In this document: piece after piece, positions 8,808-56,266 of the stretch
Layout of the letters: every line of letters begins with the position of its first letter
How positions within the stretch are numbered: position 1 is the first letter of the stretch
Notes under the pieces: generated by a model
The model's input: the letters and a program-made list of their open reading frames with translations, nothing else
The model's database searches: none
What the model was told of the DNA's origin: nothing
DNA from: Xenophilus sp. E41
GTDB taxonomy: Bacteria > Pseudomonadota > Gammaproteobacteria > Burkholderiales > Burkholderiaceae_C
Direction: 5' to 3'
Assembly: GCF_003671765.1 (NCBI RefSeq)
Contig: NZ_QPIB01000001.1
Span: 248,001-312,000 of the forward strand
DNA length: 64,000 nucleotides
Made by a program: the position numbers and the translations under genes

Positions 8808-9563
8808 TCAGGACGCGGGGGGCGGCATGCCCAGCATGCCGGCCAGCACCCGGTGCTTGGACTGCTCGATGTGCGCCATCATCTGCGCCAGCGCCGCCTC
8901 GCGTTCGCCGGCAGCGAGCGCGCGCAGAAAGGCCAGGTGCTCGCGCATGGCAGGCACCACCTGCACCGGCCGCATCGAGTCGGCGTCGTAGCGGATCAGC
9001 CGCACGTGCAGGCTGTTGACGCGATAGATCTCCGACAGGATCTCGTTGCCGATGCTGTCGACCATCAGGTCGTGCAGGCCCCAGTCGACGGCCTGCGCGT
9101 CCTTCTCCAGGGCCGCATCGGGCTTGGGCTGCAGCGCGCGCTCCAGGATGGCCTCGTGGTCGGCAATGAGCCGCTCCAGCGTGGCCGGCGTCGCCACCTC
9201 GGCAAAGCGCTGCACGGCCTCGCGCTCGACCATCGCGCGCACCTGCCAGGCGTTGCGGATGAGCTTCATGTCCACCGTCGCCACCTGCAGGCCGCGCTTG
9301 GGCACCGCCTTGATCAGCCCCGCCGCCTCCAGCCGCGGCACCAGCTCGCGCACCGCGGCCAGCGGCATCGCCAGCAGTTGCATCAGCTCGCGCTGCGAGA
9401 CGAACTGGCCCGGCCGGATGCGCGCATCGATGATCTGCTGGCGAAAGCCCTGGTAGGCGAGGTTGCGCTGCGTGACCGGCTCGACGGCCTGCACGGCCGC
9501 CGGCGTTGCGCGGCTTGGCCGGTTGGAGGCGCGGGCGGTGGCTGTGGGATTCATGGGGGGCAT
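8808..9563 (-). CDS. GntR-family regulator, FCD subfamily
   Basis: A 251-residue regulator with an N-terminal winged helix ([22 protein letters not shown], then [21 protein letters not shown]) and a helical FCD ligand-binding domain ([63 protein letters not shown]). FCD regulators usually bind small organic acids and repress a neighbouring operon. It is divergent from the DHDPS/DhaKL/Liv operon, with palindromes between them. The start may be ATG 9563 or ATG 9554. Confidence 0.9.
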
Positions 9564-9600: not shown

Positions 9601-9638
9601 GTACTAGGGATAGTACTAACATCTATCTGACATGTCAG
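9601..9638. promoter_or_regulatory. Paired palindromic operators for the GntR regulator
   Basis: The gap between the GntR gene and the divergent operon holds two perfect palindromes. One is GTACTA-GGGA-TAGTAC at 9601-9616. The other is CTGACATGTCAG at 9627-9638. A regulator of the FCD class binds such dyads as a dimer, so these are the likely operators for autoregulation and for the catabolic operon that starts at 9736. Confidence 0.6.
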
Positions 9639-9735: not shown

Positions 9736-10626
9736 ATGGCCCTCGAACTCAACGGCATCATCCCGCCCCTCGTCACCCCCTTCACCGCCGATGGCGAGAT
9801 CGACGAAGCGGCGTTCCGCAACGTCATCCGCTTCAACCTGTCCAAGGGCGTGCACGGCGTGTGCCCCGGCGGCAGCACCGGCGAGGGCCACACCTTTACG
9901 GCCGAGGAATTCGCCCGGGTCATGGAGATCACCGTGGACGAAGTGGCGGGCAAGGTGCCGGTCGTCGCCGGCATCATCTCCAACAGCACCCGCGACGCGA
10001 TCCGCCGTGCGAAATCGGTCGCGCACCTGCCGATCGCCGGCCTGCAGGTCACGCCCGTGCACTACCTCTTCAAGCCCGACGAGGAAGCGACCTTCAACCA
10101 CTTCAAGGCGCTGACCGAGGCCGTCGACATCCCGGTCATCATCTACAACGTCGTGCCCTGGAACTACCTGAACCCGGCGCAGATGATCCGCCTGATGCAG
10201 GAGCTGCCCGGCGTGCAGGGCATCAAGCAGAGCCAGGGCGACCTCAAGCTGATGGCCGACCTGGTGCTGGGCGTGCCCGAAGGTTGCAAGGTGTTCTCGG
10301 CCGTCGACGCGCTCATGTACTCGTCCTTCGCGCTCGGCGCGCACGGCGCCATCGCCGCCACGCCGGCCGCGCTGCCGGGCGTGTGCGTGGCCCTGTGGAA
10401 CGCCGTGCAGGCCGGCGACCATGCCAAGGGCCTGGAGATCCACCGCGCCATGCTGACCTTCTGGAACGCCGTGGTGGGCGACAACCTGCCGGCCAACCTC
10501 AAGACCACCATCGCGCTGCAGGGCTGCCCCACCGGCCTGCCCCGCGCGCCGATGCCCGCGACCAGCGAAGCGCAGACCGCGCGCATCCGCAAGACCCTGG
10601 ACGCCGTGCTGGCCTTCGAGGCCTGA
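9736..10626 (+). CDS. Dihydrodipicolinate synthase family lyase/aldolase
   Basis: A 296-residue TIM-barrel enzyme of the DapA/NAL family, which forms a Schiff base with pyruvate-type substrates. Visible family features are GIIPPLVTPFT near the N-terminus, CPGGSTGEGHTF (the GxxGE carboxylate-binding loop), IIYNVVPWNYL (catalytic Tyr) and GIKQSQGD (Schiff-base Lys). Heading a transport and kinase operon, it is more likely a catabolic aldolase or dehydratase than the lysine-pathway DapA. First gene after the GntR operators; the 33-nt gap to the next gene fits one transcript. Confidence 0.88.
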   Translation: MALELNGIIPPLVTPFTADGEIDEAAFRNVIRFNLSKGVHGVCPGGSTGEGHTFTAEEFARVMEITVDEVAGKVPVVAGIISNSTRDAIRRAKSVAHLPIAGLQVTPVHYLFKPDEEATFNHFKALTEAVDIPVIIYNVVPWNYLNPAQMIRLMQELPGVQGIKQSQGDLKLMADLVLGVPEGCKVFSAVDALMYSSFALGAHGAIAATPAALPGVCVALWNAVQAGDHAKGLEIHRAMLTFWNAVVGDNLPANLKTTIALQGCPTGLPRAPMPATSEAQTARIRKTLDAVLAFEA

Positions 10627-10659
10627 GCGCAGCGCAACCCGACAACGACGGAGACACCC

Positions 10660-11643
10660 ATGAACATCCAACGACGCAACCTGATGAAAGCCGGCGCGCT
10701 GGCCGCCGCCGGCCTCGCCGTGGGGCCGCGCGCCTTCGCGCAGGGCGGCTTCCCGACCAAGCCGGTGACGCTCATCGTGCCCTTCGCGCCCGGCGGCAAC
10801 ACCGACATCGTGGCGCGCAGCGTCGCGGTGTCGCTGGGCAAGGTGCTGGGCCAGTCGGTGGTGGTGGACAACCGCGCCGGCGCGGGCGGCTCCATCGGCG
10901 CCTCGCTGGTGTCGCGCGCGCAGCCCGACGGCTACACGCTGCTGCTGTGCGGCGCGGGCGTGATCGTCACGGTGCCCGAGATCGTCAAGACCCAGTACAC
11001 GCGCGCCAACTTCGCGCCCATCGGCCTGGTGAACAAGAGCTCGATGGTGATCCTGGCGCGCAAGAACGACGCCCGCTTCAAGAACTTCCAGGACTTCGCC
11101 ACCTACGCCCGCGCGGCCGAGGGCAAGGTCATGGCCGCGCACTCCGGCCCCGGCACGCCCAACCAGCTGGCGCTCATCCAGCTGGAGAACCTGCTCAAGG
11201 CGCGCTTCACCAGCGTCAGCTACAAGGGCTCGGCGCCGGCGCTGGTCGACCTGATGGGCGGCCAGGTGGACGTGCACTTCGACCAGGTCACCAGTTCCCT
11301 GCCCTACATCAAGTCCGGCCAGCTCGAGCCGCTTGCGGTGCTCGGCCCGGCGCAGGACCCGTCGCTGCCCGGGGTGAAGACCGTGGCCGAGCTGGGCTTC
11401 GGCAATCTCGACGGCACCACCTACGTCGGCGTGCTCGGCCCGGCCGGCATGCCCAAGGACCTGCAGGACAAGCTGGCCGCTTCGCTGGCGCAGGCGGTGA
11501 AGGACCCGTACACGGTGCAGAACGCCCGCGAGCTGGGCAGCGTCGCCGTCAGCAGCACGCCGCAGGAGTTCGCCCGCATCCTCGACGCCGAGTACGCGCT
11601 GGCGAGCCAGTCCGTGAAGGACGGCCGCCTGAAGGCCGACTGA
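10660..11643 (+). CDS. Bug-family tripartite tricarboxylate receptor
   Basis: A 327-residue periplasmic binding protein. The N-terminus IQRRNLMKAGALAAAGLAV is a twin-arginine-like signal ending PRAFAQ. The mature start FPTKPVTLIVPFAPGGNTD and the DNRAGAGGSIGASLVSRAQPDG block are hallmarks of the family. No TctA/TctB partners are present. It sits inside an operon that also encodes a complete Liv-type importer with its own receptor, so two different binding proteins are co-expressed. It may act as a sensor or feed a remote transporter; that is inference. Confidence 0.9.
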   Translation: MNIQRRNLMKAGALAAAGLAVGPRAFAQGGFPTKPVTLIVPFAPGGNTDIVARSVAVSLGKVLGQSVVVDNRAGAGGSIGASLVSRAQPDGYTLLLCGAGVIVTVPEIVKTQYTRANFAPIGLVNKSSMVILARKNDARFKNFQDFATYARAAEGKVMAAHSGPGTPNQLALIQLENLLKARFTSVSYKGSAPALVDLMGGQVDVHFDQVTSSLPYIKSGQLEPLAVLGPAQDPSLPGVKTVAELGFGNLDGTTYVGVLGPAGMPKDLQDKLAASLAQAVKDPYTVQNARELGSVAVSSTPQEFARILDAEYALASQSVKDGRLKAD

Positions 11644-11668
11644 TCCCGACGCCTGCGGAAACCGCCAC

Positions 11669-12667
11669 GTGAAGAAAATCCTCAACGACCCCAAGGCCTA
11701 CGTCGACGAGATGCTCGACGGGCTGGTGCTGTGCCATCCCGAACTCGCCCGTGCCGGTGACGACGGCCGCGTCATCGTGCGCAGCCACGGCCCCGTGGCG
11801 GGCAAGGTCGGCATCGTGACCGGCGGCGGCTCGGGACACCTGCCGGTGTTCCTGGGCTACGTCGGCGACGGCCTGCTCGACAGCTGCGCCGTGGGCAACG
11901 TGTTCGCCGGCCCGCGCATGGACGACTGCATGACGGCCGCGCGCGCGGCCGACGGCGGCGCCGGCGTGCTGCAGCTGTACGGCAACTACGGCGGCGACCG
12001 CATGAACTTCGACATGGCGGCCGAGATGCTGGAGATGGACGGGCTGCAGGTCGCCTCGGTGCGCGTGTCGGACGACGTGGCCAGCGCGCCCGTCGACCAG
12101 CGCGAGAAGCGCCGCGGCGTGGCCGGCCTGGTCTTCGTCTACAAGGCGGTGGGCGCCAAGGCGGCGGCCGGGGCGTCGCTCGAGGAGGTCACGGCGCTGG
12201 CACGCAAGGCCAACGACGCCGTGCGCTCCATCGGCGTGGCCCTCACGCCCTGCGTCGTGCCCGAATCGGGCAAGGCCTCCTTCGAGATCGCCGACACCGA
12301 AGTCGAGTTCGGCATGGGCATCCACGGCGAGCCCGGCATCTGGCGCGGGCCGCTCAAGAGCGCCGACGCGCTGGTCGACGAGATGCTGGGCCACGTGCTG
12401 CCCGAACTGCAGCTGGCGCGCGGCGACCGCATCGCCCTGCTGGTCAACAGCCTGGGCGCCACGCCGCTGGAGGAGCTGTACATCCTCTACCGCCGCGCGC
12501 GGCAGGTGCTGGACGAACGCGGCATCGCCATCGCCCACCCGCTGGTGGGCCGCTACGCCACCTCGATGGAGATGGCCGGTGCCTCGATCAGCGTGATGAA
12601 GCTGGACGACGAACTGGCGCAGCTGCTGGCCGCCCCGGCCGACTGCCCCTTCTGGAGCGTGCGCTGA
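11669..12667 (+). CDS. DhaK-type kinase subunit (divergent)
   Basis: A 332-residue protein of the DhaK family, which binds ketoses such as dihydroxyacetone covalently through a His. The GTG start at 11669 begins MKKILNDPKAYVDEMLDGL. Family features are VTGGGSGHLPVFLGYVG, GNYGGDRMNF and FGMGIHGEPGI, the last carrying the hemiaminal His. Some usual residues are changed (GHLPVF where GHEPAH is common; GNYGGD where KNYTGD is common), so the substrate may differ from dihydroxyacetone. It overlaps the DhaL gene by one base. Confidence 0.87.
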   Translation: MKKILNDPKAYVDEMLDGLVLCHPELARAGDDGRVIVRSHGPVAGKVGIVTGGGSGHLPVFLGYVGDGLLDSCAVGNVFAGPRMDDCMTAARAADGGAGVLQLYGNYGGDRMNFDMAAEMLEMDGLQVASVRVSDDVASAPVDQREKRRGVAGLVFVYKAVGAKAAAGASLEEVTALARKANDAVRSIGVALTPCVVPESGKASFEIADTEVEFGMGIHGEPGIWRGPLKSADALVDEMLGHVLPELQLARGDRIALLVNSLGATPLEELYILYRRARQVLDERGIAIAHPLVGRYATSMEMAGASISVMKLDDELAQLLAAPADCPFWSVR

Positions 12668-13266
12668 TGCTCGACGCCGACACCCTCGCTGCGGCGCTGC
12701 CGAAGTGGTGCGCCGGCGTGCACCACGCGGCGCCCGAGCTCAACGAGCTCGACGGCCGCCTGGGCGACGCCGACCTGGGCGCCACGCTGGACAAGTGCGC
12801 CACGCTGGTCGAACAGGCCCTGCCCGAGATGGCCGGCATGCCGCTGGACGCCATGCTGCGACGCTGCGCGCAGGCCTGCGCCAAGGCCTCGGGCTCGAGC
12901 TTCGGCACCCTGCTCACGGTGGCGCTGATGACCGCCGCCAAGCGCTGCGCCGGCACCGACGCACTCGACCGCCCCGCCCTGGCCGCCCTGCTCGGCGAGA
13001 TCGGCGACACGCTGGCCGCCCGCGGCGGCGCGAGCCCGGGCGACAAGACCGTGCTCGACAGCCTGCACGCCGTGCGCCAGGCGCTGGCCGAGGCGCCGGA
13101 CGGCACGCCCCTGCGCCCCGTGGCGTGCGACGCGGCGCAGGCCGCGCTCGACAGCTTCCGCGACCGCCCCAACCGCATCGGCCGCGCACGCATGTTCGCC
13201 GACAAGACCATCGGCATGGACGACCCCGGCATGGTCGCACTGTTGCGCATGGCACAGAGCCTGTAG
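12667..13266 (+). CDS. DhaL-type kinase ADP-binding subunit (divergent)
   Basis: A 199-residue helical protein of the DhaL family, the nucleotide-binding partner of DhaK. The Mg-ADP motif reads LDGRLGDADLG, keeping the three aspartates (D29, D34, D36) but replacing the usual GDGDHG; GSSFGTLL replaces the more common GGTSGPLYG. A C-terminal TIGMDDPG corresponds to the family IGHxDPG segment. There is no DhaM/PTS gene nearby, so an ATP-dependent two-subunit kinase is more likely than a PTS-dependent one. Substrate unknown. Confidence 0.85.
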   Translation: MLDADTLAAALPKWCAGVHHAAPELNELDGRLGDADLGATLDKCATLVEQALPEMAGMPLDAMLRRCAQACAKASGSSFGTLLTVALMTAAKRCAGTDALDRPALAALLGEIGDTLAARGGASPGDKTVLDSLHAVRQALAEAPDGTPLRPVACDAAQAALDSFRDRPNRIGRARMFADKTIGMDDPGMVALLRMAQSL

Positions 13267-13324
13267 ACCCGCCACCCGACGTCCCTCGCAGAAGGGACGG
13301 TTCACGACACCGGAGACAAACGCA

Positions 13325-14197
13325 ATGCTGGGACAAGTGATCATCAGCGGCCTGGCCATGGGCTGCATCTACGCGCTCATCGCGCTGGGCTACGCCTACG
13401 TGTGGAACACGATGGCGATCGTGAACTTCGCGGCGGGCGAGTTCCTCACCTTCGCCGCCTTCGTGTTCGTGGCCACCTTCACCACCAGCCTGAATCTGCC
13501 CTTCTGGCTGGCGGCGCTGGCCACGGCCGCGGCCATGGCGCTCATGGGCGCCCTCTTCTCGGTGCTGGTCTTCGCGCGGCTGCAGCGGCAGAAGGCGCTG
13601 GTGGCCATCATCGCGACGGTGGGCTTCGGCATCTTCCTCAAGGAGATGGCCCGCATCATCTACGGCCCGGAGCCGCTGCTGTACCTCAGCCCCTTCGGCG
13701 ACGGCGTGCTGGACTTCGGCGCCTTCCGCATCCCTGTGCAGCAGCTGGTGATCATGGCCATCGTGCTCGTGATCATGGTGCTGCAGTACCTCGCGCTGCG
13801 CTACACCACCATCGGCAAGATGATGCGCGCCACCGCGCTGGACCGCGAGACCGCACGCCTCATGGGCATCCCGGTCAACCGCGTGCTGGCCGGCACCTTC
13901 GCCTTCTCGTCGGTGCTGGCGGCGCTGGCCGGCATCCTGCTCGCGCCGCTCTTCTACGTCACGACGGAGATGGGCACGCTGGTGGGCCTGAAGGGCTTCG
14001 TGGCCATGATCATCGGCGGCTTCGGCAGCATGCCGGGCGCCATCCTGGGCGGCGTGCTGCTGGGCATCGCCGAGAACGTGGGCGCCTTCACCATCTCGTC
14101 CACCTACAAGGACGCGCTGGCCTTCGTGCTGCTGCTGGTGTTCCTGCTGGTGCGGCCGCAGGGCCTGCTGCCCGAACGCCATGCGGACCGCGCCTGA
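13325..14197 (+). CDS. Branched-chain amino-acid-type ABC permease, LivH
   Basis: A 290-residue integral membrane protein of the LivH family with about eight predicted hydrophobic segments. Typical features are ISGLAMGCIYALIALGYAY at the N-terminus, the cytoplasmic RATALDRETARLMGI loop that contacts the ATPase, and GFVAMIIGGFGSMPGAILGG. It starts 58 nt after the DhaL gene and lies 13 nt before the LivM-LivG fusion. Despite the family name, Liv-type importers in this group of bacteria carry many aromatic and aliphatic acids. Confidence 0.92.
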   Translation: MLGQVIISGLAMGCIYALIALGYAYVWNTMAIVNFAAGEFLTFAAFVFVATFTTSLNLPFWLAALATAAAMALMGALFSVLVFARLQRQKALVAIIATVGFGIFLKEMARIIYGPEPLLYLSPFGDGVLDFGAFRIPVQQLVIMAIVLVIMVLQYLALRYTTIGKMMRATALDRETARLMGIPVNRVLAGTFAFSSVLAALAGILLAPLFYVTTEMGTLVGLKGFVAMIIGGFGSMPGAILGGVLLGIAENVGAFTISSTYKDALAFVLLLVFLLVRPQGLLPERHADRA

Positions 14198-14210
14198 GGG
14201 AGCCGGCACG

Positions 14211-16073
14211 ATGTCGCACCGACTCCTGCGCCCGCTGGCCTGGCTGGTCGTGCTGGCCGCCCTGGCCGCGCCCATCGCCTTCGGCCTGAACGACTACTAC
14301 CTGCGCGTCCTCAACCTCGCCTGGGTCTTCGCCATCGCGGCGCTGGGCCTGCAGATCGTCACCGGCGTGGCCGGGCAGATCGTGCTCGGCCAGGCTGCGC
14401 TGGTGGGTTTCGGCGGCTACGCCACCGCCCTCCTGATGATGCGTGTGCAGCTGCCGTGGTTCGTGGCGCTGCCCGCCGCCGTGCTGCTGACCACCGCCGT
14501 CGGCGCCCTGCTCGGGGCCGTGAGCACGCGCATCAAGGGCCACTACCTCGCGATCGTGACGCTGGGCCTGAACGAGATCTTCCGCATGGTCGCCATCAAC
14601 GAGGAATGGCTCACCGGCGGGCCCATGGGCCTGCGCGACATCCCGACGCTGCAGATCCCGGGCATGGGCGGCAGCATCGACCAGCAGCTGTACGTCCCGC
14701 TGCTGGCGGTGTGCGCCGTCGTCTATGCACTGGCCGTGCATGTCCACCGCAGCCGCATCGGCCGCACGCTGCGCGCCGTGCGCGACGACGAGATCGCCGC
14801 CGAAGCCATGGGCGTGGACTCGCGCAAGGCCAAGACCATCGCCTTCATGCTGTGCAGCGCCTGCGGCGCGCTGGCCGGCGGCCTGTACGTGCTGCTGGCC
14901 GGCTTCGCGGCGCCCAACAACTTCACGGTCTTCGAGAGCATCAAGATGATGCTGATGGTGGTGATGGGCGGGCTGGGCTCGATCGCAGGCACCTTCCTGG
15001 GCGCCGTGGTCATCACCGTGCTGCCCGAGGCGCTGCGCGACCTGCAGACCTACTACCTGGCCGCCTTCGGACTGGGCGTGGTGCTGATCCTGCTGGTCGC
15101 GCCGCGCGGCCTGGGCGTGATCGGCGACTGGATGCTCGGCCGCTTCCTGACGGGGCCGCAGCCGCCCGTGCCCGAGGCACCGGCCAGCCCGCTCAACCTG
15201 CGCGAGGCCGCCGAAGCCGCCAGCGCGGCCCTCGCGGGCCAGGTGCATGCGCCGCAGGCGGCGGCGCTGCTGCGCGTCGAGGGTGTCTCGCGCGCCTTCG
15301 GCGGCGTCAAGGCGCTGAACGACGTACGCTTCGAACTGCGCCGCGGCGAGATCCTGGGCCTGATCGGGCCCAACGGGTCCGGCAAGTCGACCATGATCAA
15401 CGCCTGCTCCGGCGTGGTGGACGTGGATGGCGCCATCGCACTCGAAGACACGCGGCTGGACAACCACCGGCCCTGGGAGATCCATGCCAAGGGCGTGGCC
15501 CGCATCTTCCAGAACGTGCGCCTGTGGGAGTCGATGAGCGTGCTGGAGAACGTGATGGTCGCCTGCCCGCGCGCGGCCGACGGCGCCGGACCCGGCGCCC
15601 GCGAGGCCCGCCGACGCGAGGCCGCGCTGCAGGCGCTGGTCCACATGGGCGTGGGGCACCTGGCGCACCGGCGTGCCGGCGACCTCTCCTTCGGTCAGAG
15701 CCGGCTGGTGGAGATGGCGCGCGCCATCGTGAGCCGGCCCCGCCTGCTGCTGCTGGACGAGCCCGCAGCCGGCCTGCGCGGCGGCCTGATCGAGGAGCTG
15801 GCGCTCATCCTCAAGCAGTTGCGTGCGGAGGGCATGTCGATCCTGGTCGTGGAGCACCGCGTGCGGCTGGTCATGGACATGTGCGACCGCGTGGTGGTGC
15901 TCAACCTCGGCGACAAGATCGCCGACGGCCGGCCCGTCGAGGTGATGACCTCGCCAGCCGTGGTCGAGGCCTACCTGGGCGAGCGCATCCCGCCCGAGGC
16001 ACCGCAGGCTGCGGCGCCACCCACCGAACCGCCGGGCGCGGCCGACGCGCCGAAGGCCATTGCGGTGGCCTGA
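14211..16073 (+). CDS. Fused LivM permease-LivG ATPase
   Basis: A 620-residue fusion. Residues 1 to about 320 are a LivM-type permease ([57 protein letters not shown]). A hydrophilic linker follows, then a LivG ATPase from about residue 350 with Walker [10 protein letters not shown], signature [13 protein letters not shown], Walker [12 protein letters not shown] and switch His [10 protein letters not shown]. The start ATG 14211 has GAGGGAG upstream and avoids overlap with livH; ATG 14181 is an alternative. The tail is Pro/Ala rich. Confidence 0.92.
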
Positions 16074-16137
16074 CACGCTTTTCTCACTCTCGCTTCAACA
16101 CAACGTGCCCAGGCACATCAAAACGGAGACCTCTGCC

Positions 16138-17268
16138 ATGCGTGATTCCTTCCCTCGTTCCTCGCGCCGGGCCGTCGCCGGCGCCGTCGCCCTGATGCTG
16201 GCCGGCTCGGCCATGGCCGAAGCCGTCATCGGTGTGTCGCTGCCGATGACCGGCCCCAAGGCCCTGGTGGGCCGCAACTACAAGCAGGGCGTGGAGCTGG
16301 CCGTGAGCGAGATCAACGCTGCCGGCGGGGTGCTGGGCAAGCCGCTGGAGGTGGTGTTCCAGGACGACCAGGGCGACAACCCCAACGGCGCCATCAACGC
16401 CGTGAACAAGCTGATGCAGGTCGACAAGGTGCCCGTGATGATCGGGCCTCACTACTCCGTGACGCAGATGGCCACGCAGAAGACCTACTGCAACGGCAAG
16501 GTGGTGTCGCTCACCGGCGGGACCTCGGTGGCGATCACGCACAGCGGCTGCAACTACGTGATCCGCACGCGTTCGGACGACGACGTGCAGGCCAAGGCCC
16601 TGATCGACTACGCCCAGAAGGAACTGAAGGCCGGCGAGAAGACGGCCATCTTCTACGCCAACGACGACTTCGGAAAGTCGGGCCAGGCGCGCGTGGTGGC
16701 GCAGATGGCCGCGCTGGGACTCAAGCCCGTCGCGGTCGAAAGCCACAACCCCAGCGACAAGGACTATTCCGCCCAGCTCGCCAAGCTGGAGAAGACCGGC
16801 GCGCAGCTCGTGATCCTGTGGGCCCACGACACCGACGCGGCCCTGATCCTGCGCCAGGCCAAGCAGTTCGGCCTGAAGTTCAAGTTCGCGGGGGCCGTGC
16901 TGTCGGAAGACGCCTTCCTCAAGCTGGCCGGCGGTGCCGCGGAGGGCGCGATGAGCGCCTCCTACTTCGTGCCGACCGACCCCAACCCGGCCGTGCAGGA
17001 CTTCGTCAAGAAGTACGAGGCGAAGTTCAAGATGGCGCCGGACGTCTGGTCGGCCACCTACTACGACGCCACGATCCTTGCCGCCAAGGCCATCAACGAG
17101 GCGAAGAGCACCGACGTCGACAAGGTACGTGCCGCCTTCGGCCAGGTGCAGTACAAGGGCCTGCTGGCCGACTACAAGTGCGACAAGGCCGGCGACTGCA
17201 ACAAGCAGGTCAACATCGTCGAGATCAAGGGCGGCAAGCCGGTCGTGCTCTCGGCCGTGCGCTACTGA
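16138..17268 (+). CDS. Liv-type ABC transporter substrate-binding protein
   Basis: A 376-residue periplasmic binding protein of the peripla_BP_6 (LivK) class. Start ATG 16138 has GGAG upstream and begins a signal peptide ending LAGSAMAEA. Mature features are IGVSLPMTGPKALVGRNYKQG, ELAVSEINAAGGVLGKPLEVVFQDDQGDN and AIFYANDDFGKSG. It lies between the permease/ATPase fusion and the LivF gene and completes the importer. Ligand is unknown. Confidence 0.92.
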   Translation: MRDSFPRSSRRAVAGAVALMLAGSAMAEAVIGVSLPMTGPKALVGRNYKQGVELAVSEINAAGGVLGKPLEVVFQDDQGDNPNGAINAVNKLMQVDKVPVMIGPHYSVTQMATQKTYCNGKVVSLTGGTSVAITHSGCNYVIRTRSDDDVQAKALIDYAQKELKAGEKTAIFYANDDFGKSGQARVVAQMAALGLKPVAVESHNPSDKDYSAQLAKLEKTGAQLVILWAHDTDAALILRQAKQFGLKFKFAGAVLSEDAFLKLAGGAAEGAMSASYFVPTDPNPAVQDFVKKYEAKFKMAPDVWSATYYDATILAAKAINEAKSTDVDKVRAAFGQVQYKGLLADYKCDKAGDCNKQVNIVEIKGGKPVVLSAVRY

Positions 17269-17287
17269 CCGGAGCACGGCGCGCACC

Positions 17288-18043
17288 ATGATGCAGGCGG
17301 TCCTCACCCCTCCCGACGTGCAGGCCGGCACGGCCGAGCTGGAGCTCTCGCACGTGGACGTGTTCTACGGCAAGGTGCAGATCCTGTTCGACCTGTCGAT
17401 CCGCGCGATGCCGGGGCAGATCGTGGCGGTGATCGGCGCCAACGGCGCCGGCAAGTCGACCACGCTGAACCTCATCGTCGGGCGCCTGCGCCCCAGCGCG
17501 GGCGAGGTGAGCTTTCGCGGCCGCAGCCTGCAGCAGCGCAGCGTGGAGCAGATCGTGGCCAGCGGCATCGCCTGCGTGCCGCAGCGCCGACGCATCTTCT
17601 CCACCCTCACGGTGCGCGAGAACCTCGACGTCGGCGCCTACGTGCGGCGGCACGACAAGGGCGCGGTGCAGGCCACGCTGGACGAGGTGTTCGAGCTGTT
17701 CCCGGTGCTCGAGCGCAAGGCCGGCGAGATGGGCGGCGTGCTCTCCGGCGGCGAGCAGCAGATGCTGGCCATCGCCCGCGGGCTGATGGCCGGCCCGCGG
17801 CTGCTGCTGCTGGACGAGCCGTCGATGGGCCTGTCGCCCAAGCTCACGACCGAGATGTTCCTGGACATCCGGCGCATCGCGCGCGCCGGCCGCACGGTGG
17901 TGATCGTGGAGCAGAACGCCTTCGCGGCCCTGAGCGTCGCCGACCATGGCTACGTGCTGGAGGGCGGGCGCGTCGCGCTCGAAGGCCCGGCCGCGCAGCT
18001 GATGCGCGACGACCACGTGCGCGCCGCCTACCTGGGCGCCTGA
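17288..18043 (+). CDS. Branched-chain amino-acid-type ABC ATPase, LivF
   Basis: A 251-residue ATPase. Motifs are Walker A (GANGAGKSTT), signature (LSGGEQQMLAIARGL), Walker B (LLLLDEPSMGLSP) and the LivF-type VVIVEQNAFAAL switch region. ATG 17288 is chosen; a second ATG follows directly. The frame is open back to 17078, but that part overlaps the receptor gene and is not coding. Second ATPase of the importer, pairing with the LivG half of the fusion. Confidence 0.92.
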   Translation: MMQAVLTPPDVQAGTAELELSHVDVFYGKVQILFDLSIRAMPGQIVAVIGANGAGKSTTLNLIVGRLRPSAGEVSFRGRSLQQRSVEQIVASGIACVPQRRRIFSTLTVRENLDVGAYVRRHDKGAVQATLDEVFELFPVLERKAGEMGGVLSGGEQQMLAIARGLMAGPRLLLLDEPSMGLSPKLTTEMFLDIRRIARAGRTVVIVEQNAFAALSVADHGYVLEGGRVALEGPAAQLMRDDHVRAAYLGA

Positions 18044-18067
18044 ACCGAATCCTCCTTTCCTCCGGCC

Positions 18068-19507
18068 ATGTCCTTCTCCAAGACCCTCGAAGAAACCGCC
18101 GCCGACGTCGAACGGCTGCTGCCGGCCCTGCAGGCGATCTTCGGCGAGCGCGCCGTGACCTCGGCCGCGGTGCGGGCCCACCACAGCCACGGCGAGGGCC
18201 TGCCCGACCCGGGGCAGCCCGACGTGGTGCTGTTCCCGCTCTCGACGGAGGAAGTCGCGGCGGCGATGAAGCTGTGCCACGCCGCCGAGGTGCCGGTGAT
18301 CGCCTTCGGCACCGGCACGTCGATGGAGGGTCACGTCGCGGCCATCCACGGTGGCGTGTGCATCGACCTGTCGCGCATGGACCGCATCCTGGAGGTGTCG
18401 CCCGAGGCGCTCGACTGCCGGGTGCAGGCCGGCGTCACGCGCGAACAGCTCAACGCCCACCTGCGCAGCATCGGCCTGTTCTTCGCCGTCGACCCGGGTG
18501 CCAACGCCTCGCTCGGCGGCATGGCGGCCACCCGTGCGTCGGGAACCGCCGCCGTGCGCTACGGCACCATGCGCGAGGCCGTGATGGGCCTGACGGTCGT
18601 CACGCCCGACGGGCGCATCATCCGCACCGGCACGCGGGCCCGCAAGTCATCGTCCGGCCTCGACCTCACGCGGCTGTACGTGGGCAGCGAGGGCCTCCTG
18701 GGCATCATCTGCGAGGTACAGCTGCGGCTCTTCGGGCTGCCCGAGCACGTGGTGGCCGCGGTGTGCCAGTTCGACAGCCTGCGCGCGGCCGTCGACACCG
18801 TCATCGCCGCGCTGCAGCTGGCCGTGCCGGTGGCGCGCATCGAGCTGCTCGACGACGCGCAGATGGACGCCTGCATCCGCTACTCGCGCCTGGACGAGTT
18901 CGAGGCGCGCCCCGCCCTCTTCATCGAGTTCCACGGCAGCGAGGCGGCGGTGGCCGAGCAGGTGGCCACGCTGGAGGCGCTGTCCGCCGACCATGGCGGC
19001 AGCGGCTTCCGCTATGCCCACAAGCCCGAGGAGCGCACGCGCCTGTGGAAGGCGCGCCACTCCTGCTACCACGCCAACCTGGCGATGCACCCGGGCTGGA
19101 GCTCCATGGGCACCGATGCCTGCGTGCCGATCTCGGCGCTGGCCGAATGCATCACCGAGACCCAGGCCGACATCGCGGCCAGCGGCCTGTACGCGCCCAT
19201 CGTCGGCCACGTGGGCGACGGCAATTTCCACCTGGGCATCATCTACGAGGACGCCGACGCCGCGGCCCGCGCTGCCGCCGAGGCGCTCGCGGAGCGCGTG
19301 GCGCTGCGGGCCATCCGCCTGGGCGGCACCTGCACCGGTGAGCACGGCGTCGGCTTGCACCGCATGGGCCAGATCGAGGTCGAGCACGGCGAGGCGATCG
19401 AGGTCATGCGCGAGATCAAGCGCGCGCTGGACCCCAAGGGCATCCTCAACCCCGGCAAGATGCTGAGGATGGACCCCGCCGCGTCAGACGTGCCGCGAGG
19501 CCGGTGA
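18068..19507 (+). CDS. FAD-linked oxidoreductase, GlcD/D-lactate dehydrogenase family
   Basis: A 479-residue FAD-binding (PCMH type) oxidoreductase. The FAD domain holds PVIAFGTGTSMEGH, DPGANASLGGMAATRASGT and RKSSSGLDLTRLYVGSEG. The C-terminal domain has GHVGDGNFHLGIIY and GTCTGEHGVGLHRMG, both typical of D-2-hydroxyacid dehydrogenases (GlcD, D-LDH). It is the last gene of the operon and would oxidise a 2-hydroxy acid, perhaps the product of the DHDPS-family lyase. Its 3' end overlaps the convergent MerR gene by 24 nt. Confidence 0.9.
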   Translation: MSFSKTLEETAADVERLLPALQAIFGERAVTSAAVRAHHSHGEGLPDPGQPDVVLFPLSTEEVAAAMKLCHAAEVPVIAFGTGTSMEGHVAAIHGGVCIDLSRMDRILEVSPEALDCRVQAGVTREQLNAHLRSIGLFFAVDPGANASLGGMAATRASGTAAVRYGTMREAVMGLTVVTPDGRIIRTGTRARKSSSGLDLTRLYVGSEGLLGIICEVQLRLFGLPEHVVAAVCQFDSLRAAVDTVIAALQLAVPVARIELLDDAQMDACIRYSRLDEFEARPALFIEFHGSEAAVAEQVATLEALSADHGGSGFRYAHKPEERTRLWKARHSCYHANLAMHPGWSSMGTDACVPISALAECITETQADIAASGLYAPIVGHVGDGNFHLGIIYEDADAAARAAAEALAERVALRAIRLGGTCTGEHGVGLHRMGQIEVEHGEAIEVMREIKRALDPKGILNPGKMLRMDPAASDVPRGR

Positions 19508-20024: not shown

Positions 20025-22157
20025 ATGTCCGCCTCCCCCCGCCAGCCCGCCGCCCTGCTCCCACTCGCCGACCCCGACCGTGCGGCCGCCTCGTCGTGCG
20101 GCGACGGTTGCTGCGGCGGACCGGTGACGCTGCGCCCGGCCGCGGCCAAACCCCGGGCGCATGCCCACGACCATGAGGGCGGGCACGACCACGACCATGG
20201 CCCCGAAGGCCATGCGGCCGGCGACGGCCACGACCATGGCCCGCTGCCCGGCTGGCCGCGCCTGGCGGCCGCCCTCGTGGTGGCGCTGGCCGCCGAACTG
20301 AGCCACCTGCTGCTGCCCGAGACGGCCGTGTGGCGCGGCGTCGGCATGGCCCTGGCCGCGGTGGCGATCGCCCTGGCCGGCATCGGCATCTACCGGAGCG
20401 GGTTGAAGTCGCTGCTCAAGGGGCGCCTGGGCATCGACACGCTGATGGCGGTCGCGGTGACCGGCGCCTTCGTGATCGGCCAGTGGCCCGAGGCGGCCAT
20501 GGTGATGGCGCTCTACGCGCTGGCGGAGCTGATCGAGCACAAGGCCGCCGACCGCGCGCGCAACGCGATCTCGGGCCTGATGGCGCTGGCGCCCGACGAG
20601 GCCGAGGTGCGCGGTGCCGATGGTCAGTGGCGCCGCGTGCCGGCGGCCGAGGTGGCGGTCGGCCAGGTGCTGCGGGTGCGCCCCGGCGAACGCGTGCCGC
20701 TGGACGGCACCGTCACCGCCGGCAGCAGCAGCATCGACCAGGCCAGCGTCACCGGCGAGAGCATCCCGGTGGACAAGACGGTGGGCGACGCCGTTTTCGC
20801 GGCCACCGTCAACCAGGGCGGCGAGCTGGAGGTCCGCGTCAGCGCGGCCGTCGGGCACACCACGCTCGACCGCATCATCGAATCGGTGGAGCGCGCCCAG
20901 GCCTCGCGCGCGCCGACGCAGCGCTTCGTCGAGCGTTTCGCGGCCGTGTACACGCCCACGGTGTTCGTGCTGGCGGTGCTGGTCGCCGTCGTGCCGCCGC
21001 TCTTCCTGGGCGCGGCCTGGCTGGCGTCGGTCTACAAGGCGCTGGTGCTGCTGGTCATCGCCTGCCCCTGCGCGCTGGTGATCTCGACGCCGGTCACGGT
21101 CGTCAGCGGCCTCACCGCGGCGGCGCGGCGCGGCATCCTCGTCAAGGGCGGCGTGCACCTGGAGACCGCGCGCAGGCTGCGTGCCGTGGCGCTCGACAAG
21201 ACCGGCACCATCACGGCCGGCAAGCCGGTGCTGGTCGACTGGCAGCCCTGGGGCGGTGCCGACCGCGCGGGCACGGCGGCCGATGCCGCGCAACTGGCGG
21301 GCCGCTCCGACCACCCGGTGTCGGCCGCGATCGCGAGCGGCCTGCACGACGTGCCGCGCGGCAATGCGGCCATCGAGGGCTTCCGTGCCGTGGTGGGCCG
21401 CGGCGTCGAAGGCCGGGTCGACGGCCGCACGCTGGTGCTGGGCAACCACCGGCTGATCGAGGAGCGCGGCCTGTGCACGCCCGAGCTCGAGGCCGCGCTG
21501 GCCGCCCACGAACAGCAGGGCCGCACCGTGACGCTGCTCGCCGACGAACACGTCGTGCTCGGCCTCTTCGCGGTGGCCGACACCGTCAAGCCCGGTTCGC
21601 TTCAGGCCGTCGCCGCGCTGAAGGCGCTGGGCGTGACACCCGTCATGCTCACCGGCGACAACCCGAGCACTGCCCAGGCCGTGGCGCGCGAGGCCGGCAT
21701 CGACGACGCCCGCGGCGGCCTGCTGCCCGAGGACAAGCTGCAGGCCGTGCAGGCGCTGCGCCAGCGCTACGGCGCGACCGGCATGACCGGCGACGGCATC
21801 AACGACGCACCCGCCCTGGCGCAGGCCGACCTGGGCTTCGCGATGGGCGCGGCGGGCACCGACATCGCGATGGAGGCGGCCGACGTGGTCATCATGAACG
21901 ACGACCTCGGCCGCATCGCCGAGACGATCCGCCTGTCGCGCCGCACGCATGCGGTGCTGTGGCAGAACATCGCGCTGGCGCTGGGCATCAAGGCCGTCTT
22001 CTTCGGCCTGGCAATCTTCGGCCAGGCCACGATGTGGATGGCCGTGTTCGCCGACATGGGGGCCAGCCTGCTGGTGGTGGCGAACGGGCTGCGGCTGCTC
22101 AAGGCGCTGGACGCGCCGCCGGCCGCGGCAGGCGTGGCGCCGCTCAGGCCCGCGTGA
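20025..22157 (+). CDS. Heavy-metal translocating P-type ATPase (CadA/ZntA type)
   Basis: A 710-residue P1B-type ATPase exporting Cd(II), Zn(II) or Pb(II) across the inner membrane. Motifs: actuator SVTGES, metal-binding CPC in TM (IACPCALV, near 346), phosphorylation DKTGT (near 390), SDHPVS, MLTGDN and GDGINDAPAL (near 589). The N-terminus lacks a folded HMA domain. It has instead a Cys cluster (SSCGDGCCGG) and a His/Asp-rich tract with repeated HDH (residues 47-72), both plausible metal-binding sites. Controlled by the divergent MerR gene. Confidence 0.94.
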   Translation: MSASPRQPAALLPLADPDRAAASSCGDGCCGGPVTLRPAAAKPRAHAHDHEGGHDHDHGPEGHAAGDGHDHGPLPGWPRLAAALVVALAAELSHLLLPETAVWRGVGMALAAVAIALAGIGIYRSGLKSLLKGRLGIDTLMAVAVTGAFVIGQWPEAAMVMALYALAELIEHKAADRARNAISGLMALAPDEAEVRGADGQWRRVPAAEVAVGQVLRVRPGERVPLDGTVTAGSSSIDQASVTGESIPVDKTVGDAVFAATVNQGGELEVRVSAAVGHTTLDRIIESVERAQASRAPTQRFVERFAAVYTPTVFVLAVLVAVVPPLFLGAAWLASVYKALVLLVIACPCALVISTPVTVVSGLTAAARRGILVKGGVHLETARRLRAVALDKTGTITAGKPVLVDWQPWGGADRAGTAADAAQLAGRSDHPVSAAIASGLHDVPRGNAAIEGFRAVVGRGVEGRVDGRTLVLGNHRLIEERGLCTPELEAALAAHEQQGRTVTLLADEHVVLGLFAVADTVKPGSLQAVAALKALGVTPVMLTGDNPSTAQAVAREAGIDDARGGLLPEDKLQAVQALRQRYGATGMTGDGINDAPALAQADLGFAMGAAGTDIAMEAADVVIMNDDLGRIAETIRLSRRTHAVLWQNIALALGIKAVFFGLAIFGQATMWMAVFADMGASLLVVANGLRLLKALDAPPAAAGVAPLRPA

Positions 22158-47739: not shown

Positions 47740-48936
47740 TCACGCCTCGGACACGCGCACCGTGGCGTCCGCACGCTTGTGCAGGTCGGGCAGCAGTTCG
47801 AGCCCCAGGCCCGGCTTGTCGTTGAGCCGGATCATGCCCTTCTCGACGATCGGCAGTTCGGTCACCAGTTCCTTGTACCAGCCGGTGAAGAAGGCGCGCA
47901 CGCTCTCCTGGATGAGCGCGTTGGGCGCGTGCAGGCTGAGGTGCGTGGAGGCAGCCCATACCACCGGGCCGGTGCAGTCGTGCGGCGCCACCGGCAGTTG
48001 CCAGGCGTCGGCCATGGCGGCGATCTTGCGCGCTTCGGTCAGGCCGCCGCACCAGCTCAGGTCGAGCATGGCCACGCCAGCGACACCCGTCTGCAGGTAG
48101 TCCTTGAAGCCCCACTTGTAGCTGAGCGTCTCGCTCGCGCAGATCAGCGCCTTGCAGTCGACGGCATACTGACGGAGCAGGTCGAGGCTGTCCATGCGGA
48201 TCGCGTCCTCGTGCCAGAAAGTGTCGAACTCCTGCAGGGCGCGCGCGATCTTCTGCGCCATCGGCAGCCGCCACAGGCTGTGGAACTCGACCATGATGTC
48301 CATCTGCCGCCCCACGGCCGAACGGATCTTGCGGAAAGGCTCCAGCGCCGTGTCGAGATCGGCGTTGCTGATGTACTGGCCGTGGCTCCTCTCGGCCGCC
48401 GGGTCGAAGGGCCAGATCTTCATGGCCGTGATGCCTTCGGACAGCAGCGACTCGGCCAGCTCGTCGGCATGGTGCAGGAAGCCCTGCAGGTCCTCGTACG
48501 GCCCGGCGTTGTTCCCGAGCCCCCAGTTTGACGTGTTCTGGTTGGCCGTGCTGCGCACGTACTGGTAGCCGGCGCAGGTGTTGTAGATGCGGATGGCGTC
48601 GCGGCTCTTGCCGCCCAGCGCGGTGTGCACCGGCATGCTGGCGGCCTTGCCGAACAGGTCCCACAGGGCGATGTCGACGGCCGAGTTGCCGCGCGTCTCG
48701 ACGCCGGACCCGCGCCAGCCCAGGTAGCCCGTCAGGTCGCGGTTGCGCGCCTCGATCGCCAGCGGGTCGGCGCCCAGCAGCTTGGGCGCGGCCCACTCGT
48801 GCAGGTAGGCCTCGACGGCCGCGGCGCCCATGAAGGTCTCGCCCAGCCCCACCAGGCCTTCGTCGGTGTGCAGGCGCACCCACAGGATGTTGGGGAACTC
48901 GCCCAGGCGGACGGTTTCGACTTGCGTGATCTTCAT
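47740..48936 (-). CDS. Enolase-superfamily dehydratase (mandelate racemase-like)
   Basis: A 398-residue MR/MLE-family enzyme. The capping domain starts MKITQVETVRLGEFPNI and contains the typical WDLFGKAASMPVHTALGG. In the barrel, metal ligands appear as Glu in IMVEFHSLW, WHEDAIR and CASETL. The base/acid candidates are Lys in GITAMKIW and His in APHDCTGPV. These suggest a sugar-acid dehydratase of the galactonate/gluconate type. It is the last gene of the TRAP operon. Confidence 0.88.
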   Translation of the reverse strand: MKITQVETVRLGEFPNILWVRLHTDEGLVGLGETFMGAAAVEAYLHEWAAPKLLGADPLAIEARNRDLTGYLGWRGSGVETRGNSAVDIALWDLFGKAASMPVHTALGGKSRDAIRIYNTCAGYQYVRSTANQNTSNWGLGNNAGPYEDLQGFLHHADELAESLLSEGITAMKIWPFDPAAERSHGQYISNADLDTALEPFRKIRSAVGRQMDIMVEFHSLWRLPMAQKIARALQEFDTFWHEDAIRMDSLDLLRQYAVDCKALICASETLSYKWGFKDYLQTGVAGVAMLDLSWCGGLTEARKIAAMADAWQLPVAPHDCTGPVVWAASTHLSLHAPNALIQESVRAFFTGWYKELVTELPIVEKGMIRLNDKPGLGLELLPDLHKRADATVRVSEA

Positions 48937-52969: not shown

Positions 52970-54715
52970 ATGAGCAACGAGACGCCCAAGAAGAAGAAAC
53001 CCGCCCACGAACTGCGCAGCCAGCAATGGTGGGGCCGCACCGACCGCGACGGCTTCATCTACCGCAGCTGGGTCAAGGGCAAGGGCGTGCCGCACGACCA
53101 GTTCGACGGTCGGCCGGTGATCGGCATCTGCAACACCTTCAGCGAGCTCACGCCCTGCAACTCGCACTTCCGCACGCTGGCGGAGCAGGTGAAGATCGGC
53201 GTGTACGAGGCCGGCGGCTTCCCGCTCGAGTTTCCGGTGATGTCGCTCGGCGAGACGCTGTTGCGGCCCACCGCCATGCTGTACCGCAACCTCGCCAGCA
53301 TGGACGTGGAGGAATCGATCCGCGCCAACCCGCTCGACGGCGTGGTGCTGCTGATGGGCTGCGACAAGACCACGCCGGCACTGATGATGGGCGCGGCCAG
53401 CGTGGACCTCCCGACCATCGGTGTGTCGGGCGGTCCAATGCTGTCGGGCAAGTGGCGCGGGCAGGAACTGGGCTCGGGCACCGGCGTGTGGCAGATGAGC
53501 GAACAGGTGCGCGCCGGCACGCTCAAGCTGCAGGACTTCTTCGAGGCCGAGAGCTGCATGCACCGCAGCCACGGCCACTGCATGACCATGGGCACGGCCA
53601 GCACGATGGCCAGCATGGTCGAGTCGCTGGGCATCGGCCTGCCGGGCAATGCGGCCTACCCGGCGGTGGACGGCCGGCGCAACGTGCTGGCCCGCATGGC
53701 CGGGCGGCGCATCGTCGACATGGTTCACGAAGACATGAACATGTCGAAGATCCTCACGCGCGAAGCGATCGAGAACGCCATCAAGGTCAACGCCGCGATC
53801 GGCGGCTCCACCAACTTCGTGATCCACCTGCTCGCAATCGCCGGACGCATGGGCATCCCGCTGACGCTGGAGGACTTCGACCGCCTGGCCTCGGAGCTGC
53901 CCTGCCTGCTCAACCTGCAGCCCTCCGGCCAGTACCTGATGGAGGACTTCTGCTACGCGGGCGGCCTGCCGGTGGTCATGAAGGAGATCGCCGGGCTGCT
54001 GCACAAGGACGTGATCACCGCCAGCGGCAAGACCCTGTGGGAGAACGTCAAGGACGCCGAGAACTACAACACCGCGGTCATCAAGCCGCTGGACCAGCCC
54101 TTCAAGGACAAGGCCGGCATCTGCGTGCTGCGCGGCAACCTGGCGCCCAACGGCGCCATCATCAAGCCCAGCGCCGCCACGCCCGAGCTGCTGGTGCACA
54201 AGGGCCGCGCCGTGGTGTTCGAGAACGCCGACGACCTGCACAGGCGCATCGACGACGAGAGCCTCGACATCGACGAGACCTGCGTGATGGTGCTGAAGAA
54301 CTGCGGCCCCAAAGGCTATCCCGGCATGGCCGAGGCCGGCAACATGCCGCTGCCGCCCAAGGTGCTGCGCAAGGGCATCACCGACATGGTCCGCGTGAGC
54401 GACGCGCGCATGAGCGGCACCGCCTACGGCACCGTGGTGCTGCACACCGCGCCCGAAGCGGCCGCGGGCGGCCCGCTGGCGCTGGTGCAGGACGGTGACA
54501 TCGTCGAGCTCGACGTGCCGAACCGCCGCCTGCACCTGCACGTGAGCGACGAAGAGCTCGCGCGCCGCCGCGCCGGATGGACCGCGCCCAAGCCCCCGCT
54601 CGACTCTGGCTACTGGAAGCTCTACGTCGACAACGTGCTGCAGGCCGACGAAGGCGCCGACCTGGGCTTCCTGCGCGGCAAGCGCGGCAGTTTCGTGCCG
54701 CGCGACAACCACTGA
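52970..54715 (+). CDS. IlvD/Edd-family sugar-acid dehydratase
   Basis: A 581-residue Fe-S dehydratase. Likely cluster cysteines: C63 (SELTPCN), the Cys of LLMGCDKTTPA and that of SHGHCMTMGTASTMA. SGMAGR-like ending elements: MVRVSDARMSGTAYGTVVLH. The MGCDKTTPALMMGAASVD and GTASTM pattern is characteristic of sugar-acid (arabinonate/xylonate/galactonate) dehydratases rather than IlvD. ATG 52970 with GGAG upstream is used; frame open to 52907. Confidence 0.92.
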   Translation: MSNETPKKKKPAHELRSQQWWGRTDRDGFIYRSWVKGKGVPHDQFDGRPVIGICNTFSELTPCNSHFRTLAEQVKIGVYEAGGFPLEFPVMSLGETLLRPTAMLYRNLASMDVEESIRANPLDGVVLLMGCDKTTPALMMGAASVDLPTIGVSGGPMLSGKWRGQELGSGTGVWQMSEQVRAGTLKLQDFFEAESCMHRSHGHCMTMGTASTMASMVESLGIGLPGNAAYPAVDGRRNVLARMAGRRIVDMVHEDMNMSKILTREAIENAIKVNAAIGGSTNFVIHLLAIAGRMGIPLTLEDFDRLASELPCLLNLQPSGQYLMEDFCYAGGLPVVMKEIAGLLHKDVITASGKTLWENVKDAENYNTAVIKPLDQPFKDKAGICVLRGNLAPNGAIIKPSAATPELLVHKGRAVVFENADDLHRRIDDESLDIDETCVMVLKNCGPKGYPGMAEAGNMPLPPKVLRKGITDMVRVSDARMSGTAYGTVVLHTAPEAAAGGPLALVQDGDIVELDVPNRRLHLHVSDEELARRRAGWTAPKPPLDSGYWKLYVDNVLQADEGADLGFLRGKRGSFVPRDNH

Positions 54716-54720
54716 GGACG

Positions 54721-56258: not shown

Positions 56259-56266
56259 GGCCAAAA

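Follow-up and report, generated by a model that had tools for sequence, protein, structure and literature searches.

Which compound would be broken down by an operon that combines a lyase of the DHDPS family, a DhaK-DhaL-type kinase, two solute receptors, a Liv-type importer and a D-2-hydroxyacid oxidase? Such a set of genes is found in the stretch of 64,000 nucleotides that we analyzed (hereafter, the window), which comes from a bacterium of the Comamonadaceae. A sequence-only reading had considered it an uncharacterised catabolic operon, and this fits the comparative evidence. The parts are familiar and, in agreement with the claim of that reading that no described pathway has this combination, we found no description of it among the literature matches listed, which were unrelated or gave general background. 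PMC3102087 deals, in the portion available, with haloarchaea only, and none of six pocket terms occurs in the text of PMC4661931.

Gene order and the likely operator

As previously claimed, nine genes form a run on the + strand (9736-19507) behind a divergent GntR/FCD regulator on the minus strand (8808-9563; PF07729, E 6e-15; PF00392, E 5e-7). The run starts with a DHDPS-superfamily class I lyase (9736-10626; PF00701, E 1e-57), which is followed by a Bug/TctC solute receptor (10660-11643; PF03401, E 2e-49), a DhaK-type (11669-12667; PF02733, E 1e-119) and a DhaL-type kinase subunit (12667-13266; PF02734, E 6e-28), and the permease LivH (13325-14197; PF02653, E 1e-34). The remaining genes encode a LivM-LivG fusion (14211-16073, in a frame open from 14181), a LivK-type receptor (16138-17268; PF13458, E 1e-67 for the scanned frame from 16060), the ATPase LivF (17288-18043; PF00005, E 1e-31 for the scanned frame from 17078) and an LDHD-like FAD D-2-hydroxyacid dehydrogenase (18068-19507; PF01565 and PF02913). 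The likely start codons of LivMG and LivF are at 14211 and 17288, respectively. The gaps between neighboring genes are short (33, 25, -1, 58, 13, 64, 19 and 24 nt, from gene 1 to gene 9), which is consistent with a single transcription unit. The LivM-LivG fusion had been noticed before and is confirmed: a permease domain (residues 40-304; PF02653) and an ATPase domain (residues 379-529; PF00005, with PF12399) share one frame of 630 amino acids. With LivH, LivM, LivG, LivF and LivK domains all present, the operon encodes an importer of the Liv/HAAT ABC type; the best NCBIfam match of the LivF gene is LivF, at a score under the cut-off of that model. Despite the Bug/TctC receptor, no TctA or TctB was found in the operon.

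Both of the perfect palindromes claimed by the sequence-only reading are present between the regulator and the lyase. One is CTGACATGTCAG (9627-9638), with the consensus CTRACATGTYAG. The other, GTACTA-GGGA-TAGTAC (9601-9616), overlaps TAGTACTA (9611-9618); the full form of this upstream inverted repeat (9601-9618) was observed in the closest relatives only. We searched for the consensus in the eight of 14 same-genus genomes that possess a GntR-type operon, leaving out G010, whose operon is of the IclR type, and five genomes without a DhaK match. Each of the eight presented a single match, always 5' of this operon. Among the related loci (relatives from the best 80 of 547), CTRACATGTYAG precedes the lyase gene in 17/18 loci bearing GntR vs 0/10 without GntR, an association confounded with kinship, since the loci that bear GntR are also those more closely related. 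Because it presents one match per genome and tracks the GntR gene, CTGACATGTCAG is likely the operator of the operon's GntR protein. The regulator can thus be described as a GntR/FCD protein with its own operator at the level of predicted binding to a conserved palindrome.

The lyase, the kinase and the oxidase

The lyase presents the Schiff-base lysine, the tyrosine, the G-x-x-G-E motif and the TIM barrel of the DHDPS/NAL class I aldolase superfamily. Its AF2 model (pLDDT 92.8) was matched by Foldseek to the DHDPS fold, with matches that do not separate aldolases from synthases. Lys164 and Tyr137 are invariant in 28/28 aligned lyases, H52, K113 and W142 are nearly invariant, and the alignment reveals that the subfamily has a signature of its own. 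The score against the NCBIfam dapA equivalog is 181.3 bits, below the cut-off of 206.15, and the lyase reads YNVVPWNYL where DapA of E. coli has Arg138 in YNVPxRT. Another PF00701 gene, on C46, reaches 336 bits vs 195 for the operon lyase and, because of this far higher score, is likely the DapA of the genome. Given the dapA cut-off, the missing arginine and the far better gene on C46, we rejected the reading of the operon lyase as the housekeeping DapA. We propose that the lyase, with Lys164 and Tyr137, is a pyruvate-releasing aldolase.

The two kinase subunits possess full-length Dak1 and Dak2 domains and retain the His/Asp of DhaK and, when aligned with DhaL of E. coli, the Asp triad of DhaL, residues that we take to be catalytic. 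Both subunits score under the NCBIfam cut-offs (387 vs 406 bits for dhaK1 and 81 vs 138 bits for dha_L). The sequence-only reading had described the kinase motifs as altered, which holds only in part: the catalytic His/Asp are kept, and Glu57->Leu and Lys104->Gly are common to most aligned DhaKs; the change specific to the clade is Ser80->Gly. The position of E. coli Ser80, which presumably contacts dihydroxyacetone, is a glycine in all 29 lyase-linked DhaKs of the tree; these represent 29/94 rows overall and 29/34 within the Gly clade. This tree excludes six near-duplicates (L016, L018, L019, L021, L023 and L024; the named copies were retained) as well as rows no longer than 300 aa. The further claim that the substrate is probably not dihydroxyacetone is not borne out: the catalytic residues are intact, a triose such as dihydroxyacetone would be a natural product of the adjoining lyase, and Ser80->Gly is compatible with either case. 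TIGR02364, the model for DhaM, yielded 0 matches in the genome (G000) and matched 3 of 14 control genomes. Given the lack of a DhaM match in the genome, a PTS-type DhaKLM system was rejected, and the kinase is probably ATP-dependent.

The closest solved relative of the last gene is LDHD (8jdc), aligned nearly full-length over residues 17-466 (E 2e-142); the next group (9qgz) is found at E 1e-55. This predicts an LDHD-like activity. The gene scores 309 bits against NCBIfam glcD, far under the cut-off of 568, and a GlcD glycolate oxidase was rejected for this reason. The families named by the sequence-only reading are thus confirmed, except that the last gene, named GlcD-like there, is LDHD-like. 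A second paralogue is present elsewhere in the genome, with 54% identity to the operon copy.

A lyase-kinase core with exchangeable partners

Relatives were collected by a scan of genome contigs, from which the best 80 of 547 were used, so that all context counts favor close kin. Their genes were predicted with a simple gene caller (starts are approximate), and several neighbor genes took the name of their cluster (identity of 38% or more), of which representatives were examined with Pfam. We defined related loci as those with lyase and kinase together; 28 were obtained from these best 80 of 547, and the lyase and DhaK genes are co-stranded in 27 of them. When the search was based on the lyase, DhaK-DhaL adjoined in 11/15 loci, excluding that of the window. 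Four lyase homologues, all from one genus, have no DhaK within about 20 kb, which counts against the pathway proposed below.

The importers found beside the lyase-DhaK-DhaL core vary: Liv ABC, GntP, TRAP, TTT or MFS. In the same sample (best 80 of 547), LivH is missing from 17/28 related loci and the LDHD-like gene is present in 12/28, suggesting that the latter is optional. It accompanies LivH in 10/11 loci vs 2/17 without LivH (Fisher P = 5e-5, ignoring kinship). The count of LDHD-like genes includes L038, where the end of the contig truncates the gene, and L070, where the gene is on the opposite strand at a distance of about 5 kb; in L130, the stretch compared ends shortly after LivF. Three loci (L020, L021 and L022) possess a minimal operon, lyase-Bug-DhaK-DhaL-GntP, with no further enzyme, which suggests that no other enzyme is needed. 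Finally, HpcH/HpaI, a non-homologous pyruvate aldolase, adjoins DhaKL and a TTT importer in six other loci, and both aldolase types are present in L036 and L044. The six HpaI-linked kinases fall outside the Ser80->Gly clade, so this aldolase swap constitutes an analogy from sister kinases.

Proposed pathway and known systems

The conserved lyase-DhaK-DhaL core, its exchangeable importers, the palindrome tied to GntR and the HpaI-DhaKL loci make it reasonably probable that the operon imports a sugar-type carboxylic acid, cleaves it to pyruvate plus a triose, and phosphorylates the triose. The acid would enter through the Liv importer, by way of LivK and perhaps the Bug receptor, and the LDHD-like enzyme would convert a 2-hydroxy form to the 2-oxo acid (2-oxo-4-hydroxy). 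The lyase, with Lys164 and Tyr137, would then perform a retro-aldol cleavage to pyruvate and dihydroxyacetone or glyceraldehyde. DhaK would hold the carbonyl of this triose while DhaL and ATP phosphorylate it to triose phosphate, and GntR would repress at CTGACATGTCAG until a substrate or intermediate is bound. The enzymes probably act in the order oxidase, lyase, kinase. The sequence-only reading had placed lyase, kinase and hydroxyacid oxidase in series on a hydroxy or keto sugar acid; the enzymes fit the comparative evidence, but their order probably differs and the oxidase is optional. A tetronate route was not retained as the main reading, as none of the operon's genes encodes a tetronate enzyme and a pyruvate-type lyase would presumably be idle on this route. 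The window also holds a separate 2-keto-3-deoxygalactonokinase and a KDPG-aldolase-type gene, which makes an ordinary 2-keto-3-deoxyhexonate less likely as substrate. A branched sugar acid is a tentative and rather doubtful candidate: the new DHDPS subfamily and the Ser80->Gly DhaK clade would convert 4,5-dihydroxy-4-(hydroxymethyl)-2-oxopentanoate to pyruvate and dihydroxyacetone, and CoA-dependent versions at other loci of the clade (mostly in alphaproteobacteria) would yield the same ketone. Five Gly-clade kinases adjoin a CoA-transferase plus a TPP enzyme or an enoyl-CoA hydratase, without the lyase; this counts against the proposed pathway, as the kinase substrate may differ. In these CoA-linked loci, the TPP enzyme scores similarly against acetolactate synthase and glyoxylate carboligase, and somewhat lower against 2-hydroxyacyl-CoA lyase/oxalyl-CoA decarboxylase.

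The kinase might instead act first, on a larger keto-sugar acid for which Ser80->Gly would provide space; cleavage of the phosphorylated acid by the lyase would follow. The glycine found in 29/29 lyase-linked kinases of the tree agrees with this order, as do H52, K113 and W142 of the lyase, which could hold an extra group. We consider it improbable, since class I enzymes of the DHDPS superfamily mostly act on unphosphorylated acids and the contact of Ser80 with dihydroxyacetone is itself presumed. It is quite improbable that the lyase is a dehydratase of the 5-keto-4-deoxyglucarate or 2-keto-3-deoxyarabinonate type feeding a semialdehyde route, with the kinase serving another branch. Such dehydratases exist in the DHDPS superfamily, NCBIfam KdgD and PRK03620 give weak matches, and one cluster (L043) has a downstream aldehyde dehydrogenase gene. 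Against this, the scores are far under the cut-offs (97 bits, cut-off 374, for KdgD and 121 bits, cut-off 278, for PRK03620), an aldehyde dehydrogenase is absent from the window operon and from the GntP operons, and a dehydratase would not give rise to a DhaKL substrate.

It appears very unlikely that the operon joins two pathways, with its importer and receptors dedicated to a different solute such as an amino acid or a dicarboxylic acid. The nearest solved chains of LivK (3ip5, E 3e-32) and of the Bug receptor (BugD 2f5x, E 6e-53) are amino-acid-type receptors, judging from ligands that we in part assume, which counts against sugar-acid import, and the many relatives without LivH point in the same direction. 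Against this, the core repeatedly gains importers of different families, and the whole set is preceded by a single operator match. If cleavage of a sugar-type acid followed by triose phosphorylation is correct, a recognisable but unassigned DHDPS subfamily and a DhaK clade, both liable to be mislabelled by family names, would gain a function, and a carbon source of Comamonadaceae and their relatives would be revealed. With a single operator match and with importers that change from locus to locus, the question of the substrate is tractable.

The 2-keto-3-deoxygluconate aldolases YagE and Sulfolobus KdgA are, like the operon lyase, class I enzymes of the DHDPS superfamily, and cleave a 2-oxo acid to pyruvate and a triose. 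The lyase model superimposes on YagE (2v8z) with a TM-score of 0.92, but the identity is only 26% and the signature is its own. In the non-phosphorylative Entner-Doudoroff pathway the triose goes to a dehydrogenase and glycerate kinase, whereas here it would enter DhaKL. E. coli DhaKLM shares DhaK and DhaL with the presumed catalytic His/Asp; it differs from the present system by its DhaM, by Ser80, by the family cut-offs that our subunits do not reach and by the carboxylate operon in which these are found. The oxidase resembles mammalian LDHD, a D-lactate dehydrogenase, but is operon-borne and distinct from its 54% paralogue. Finally, the L-erythrulose kinase LerK is DhaK-like. Tetritol pathways use LerK and thus likewise rely on a broadly similar kinase to catabolise sugar derivatives, as described in the portion of PMC10733421 available; there the kinase is fed by a polyol dehydrogenase, whereas here it would be fed by a pyruvate-type lyase.

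Gene content and phylogenetic spread of the operon

The genome around the window measures 5.84 Mb, and the window lies on its contig 11. Profile matches to the window's frames bore out the nine genes at 9736-19507 (+) with the families assigned from sequence alone (DHDPS-superfamily lyase, Bug receptor, DhaK, DhaL, LivH, LivM-LivG, LivK, LivF and a dehydrogenase), separated in order by 33, 25, -1, 58, 13, 64, 19 and 24 nt. The last gene had been read as GlcD, which is ruled out (309 bits vs. a cut-off of 568); its closest solved relative is LDHD, the mammalian D-lactate dehydrogenase (E 2e-142). The divergent GntR/FCD gene (8808-9563, -) and the palindromes ahead of the operon were both found in the sequence as described. 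Judged from its sequence, this is a genuine, compact, self-regulated and catabolic operon. Just downstream, 20025-22157 (+) encodes a P-type ATPase (PF00122) with a His-rich N terminus, probably for a heavy metal.

We searched DhaK relatives in 60 genomes and found a match in 12, the window's own included. Among the best 80 of 547 DhaK candidates, from which relatives in named genomes were taken, the nearest were Comamonadaceae (e.g., Xenophilus, Pseudacidovorax, Variovorax). A separate lyase-based search, used to avoid bias from DhaK queries, covered 399 order, 399 family and 398 phylum genomes (overlapping sets) and gave matches at strict cut-offs in 3, 10 and 6 genomes, respectively, own genome included. 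DhaK-DhaL adjoins the lyase in 11 of the 15 loci found in this way (window left out). The remaining four (L131-L134), all from a single genus, carry a different gene next to a lyase of the same subfamily: a short-chain dehydrogenase gene follows it in L131, with similar genes in the others, and DhaK is absent from the fetched stretches. These loci possibly represent a second use of the lyase.

After removal of copies, 28 loci besides the window contained the lyase subfamily, DhaK and DhaL. Lyase and DhaK lie on one strand in 27 of these (the exception being L081), and LivH is present in 11. Other loci present a GntP permease directly 3' of DhaL (L020, L021, L022; Pfam for L021 and L022), a TRAP importer (L042, L043 by Pfam; L038, L081, L130 by cluster), a TTT importer (L097 by profile; L081 by cluster) or an MFS importer (L085, L126, L130 by profile; L070 by cluster), and in some we saw the Bug receptor and no other importer (e.g., L019, L037, L125, L128). 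The simplest arrangement, lyase-Bug-DhaK-DhaL-permease, is that of the GntP operons. TRAP, TTT and GntP systems transport organic or sugar acids, and Liv systems mostly amino acids but also other solutes. The LDHD-like gene was found in 10/11 loci with LivH vs. 2/17 without (P = 5e-5; Fisher test ignoring kinship); Liv would thus import a 2-hydroxy acid, and the other importer types presumably a 2-oxo acid. One comparison genome (G008) has two operon versions, GntR-linked and IclR-linked (L017, L023; the IclR assignment rests on the profile of a homologue in L038), which suggests two related substrates.

A candidate regulator-operator pair

The 12-bp palindrome ahead of the window operon (9627-9638) is CTGACATGTCAG, and its recurring form is CTRACATGTYAG. 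We searched this exact pattern, which looser sites would escape, in the 8 of 14 same-genus genomes with a GntR-type operon (window's genome included). Exactly one site was found in each of the eight, always ahead of this operon, relative to a chance expectation of 0.22 sites per genome of such size (window base composition); the reversed control pattern gave no site in the same genomes.

Among the 28 related loci, 18 have a homologue of the window's GntR adjoining the lyase gene: 17 carry the exact motif no more than 300 bp ahead of the lyase gene, and the last (L044) has it with one mismatch. The motif was ahead of the lyase gene in none of the 10 loci without a window-type GntR neighbor, one of which (L097) has a different GntR/FCD gene ~3 kb further on. 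Kinship contributes to this association, since the loci with GntR are more closely related as well (67-100% lyase identity vs. 47-66% in the other loci). The GTACTA/TAGTAC repeat is kept less widely across relatives than the 12-bp palindrome. On the simplest reading, the GntR protein and the palindrome are a candidate regulator-operator pair that acts locally, mainly on this operon; a further co-regulated enzyme would then not be needed.

Candidate substrates of the lyase and of the kinase

All 28 aligned lyases have the class I residues Lys164 and Tyr137, and the DapA arginine is gone. The signature GGS[ST]GEGHT plus YNV[VI]PW[NSC]Y, accompanied by VTPVHYLFKP or a variant, was found in the 39 subfamily rows of the alignment (copies included) and not in the distant rows L090 and L095. 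The AF2 model (pLDDT 92.8) has the barrel typical of DHDPS. The DHDPS superfamily also includes dehydratases, which counts against an aldolase; we nevertheless consider it moderately probable that the lyase belongs, by reaction class, to the pyruvate aldolases and supplies a triose kinase. Ordinary 2-keto-3-deoxygalactonate would be a less likely substrate, because the window has a separate 2-keto-3-deoxygalactonokinase (54577-55620, +) and KDPG/KHG aldolase domain (frame 55158-56258, +, the domain lying after the kinase's end). With a class II aldolase gene (56267-57055, +), the 54577-57055 (+) stretch resembles a galactonate pathway of the De Ley-Doudoroff type and lies ~35 kb away from the operon. 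An enolase-superfamily (MR/MLE) gene at 47740-48936 (-) is a possible sugar-acid dehydratase. A profile search of the whole genome gave no DhaM match, so ATP is the likely phosphate donor for DhaKL.

Of 94 DhaKs, 36 have Gly and 58 have Ser at the position of E. coli DhaK Ser80, which we take to contact dihydroxyacetone. One clade (support 100/99) holds 34 of the 36: all 29 lyase-linked DhaKs and five others (L041, L045, L076, L078, L092). The other two (L087, L094) are placed elsewhere, as independent Ser80-to-Gly changes, next to genes for an amidase-family protein and an ABC permease of the spermidine/putrescine type (profiles in L087). A family III CoA-transferase lies near DhaKL in all five, with an enoyl-CoA hydratase in L041 and a TPP enzyme in the other four, whose neighbors would form a CoA-dependent route. 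In these four, the TPP enzyme is of the PRK06112 group and a MaoC-type gene also occurs (Pfam in L092, cluster elsewhere); L076, L078 and L092 have an additional two-subunit CoA-transferase (Pfam in L076). In the tree, L076 and L092 branch together with three lyase-linked sequences (L081, L097, L126), so the lyase in some loci and the CoA route in others seem to take the same place next to one kinase. Provided that the two routes yield one and the same ketone, an attractive candidate would be dihydroxyacetone derived from a branched acid; this is the boldest reading and unproven. Titles and abstract openings of the literature matches listed do not describe a lyase-DhaKL combination; earlier work may exist.

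In six other loci (L048, L052, L053, L061, L063, L066), an HpcH/HpaI aldolase adjoins DhaK-DhaL together with a TTT importer (HpaI by profile in L048, L061 and L063; TctA and TctB by profile in L063; the rest by cluster). Their DhaKs keep Ser and fall outside the Gly clade. The lyase and an HpcH/HpaI aldolase are present together in L036 and L044 (HpaI by profile and by cluster, respectively). That two unrelated enzymes adjoin the same kinase pair argues that DhaKL would take the non-pyruvate product: HpcH/HpaI is a pyruvate aldolase without relation to the lyase, and the reaction type is their only common feature.
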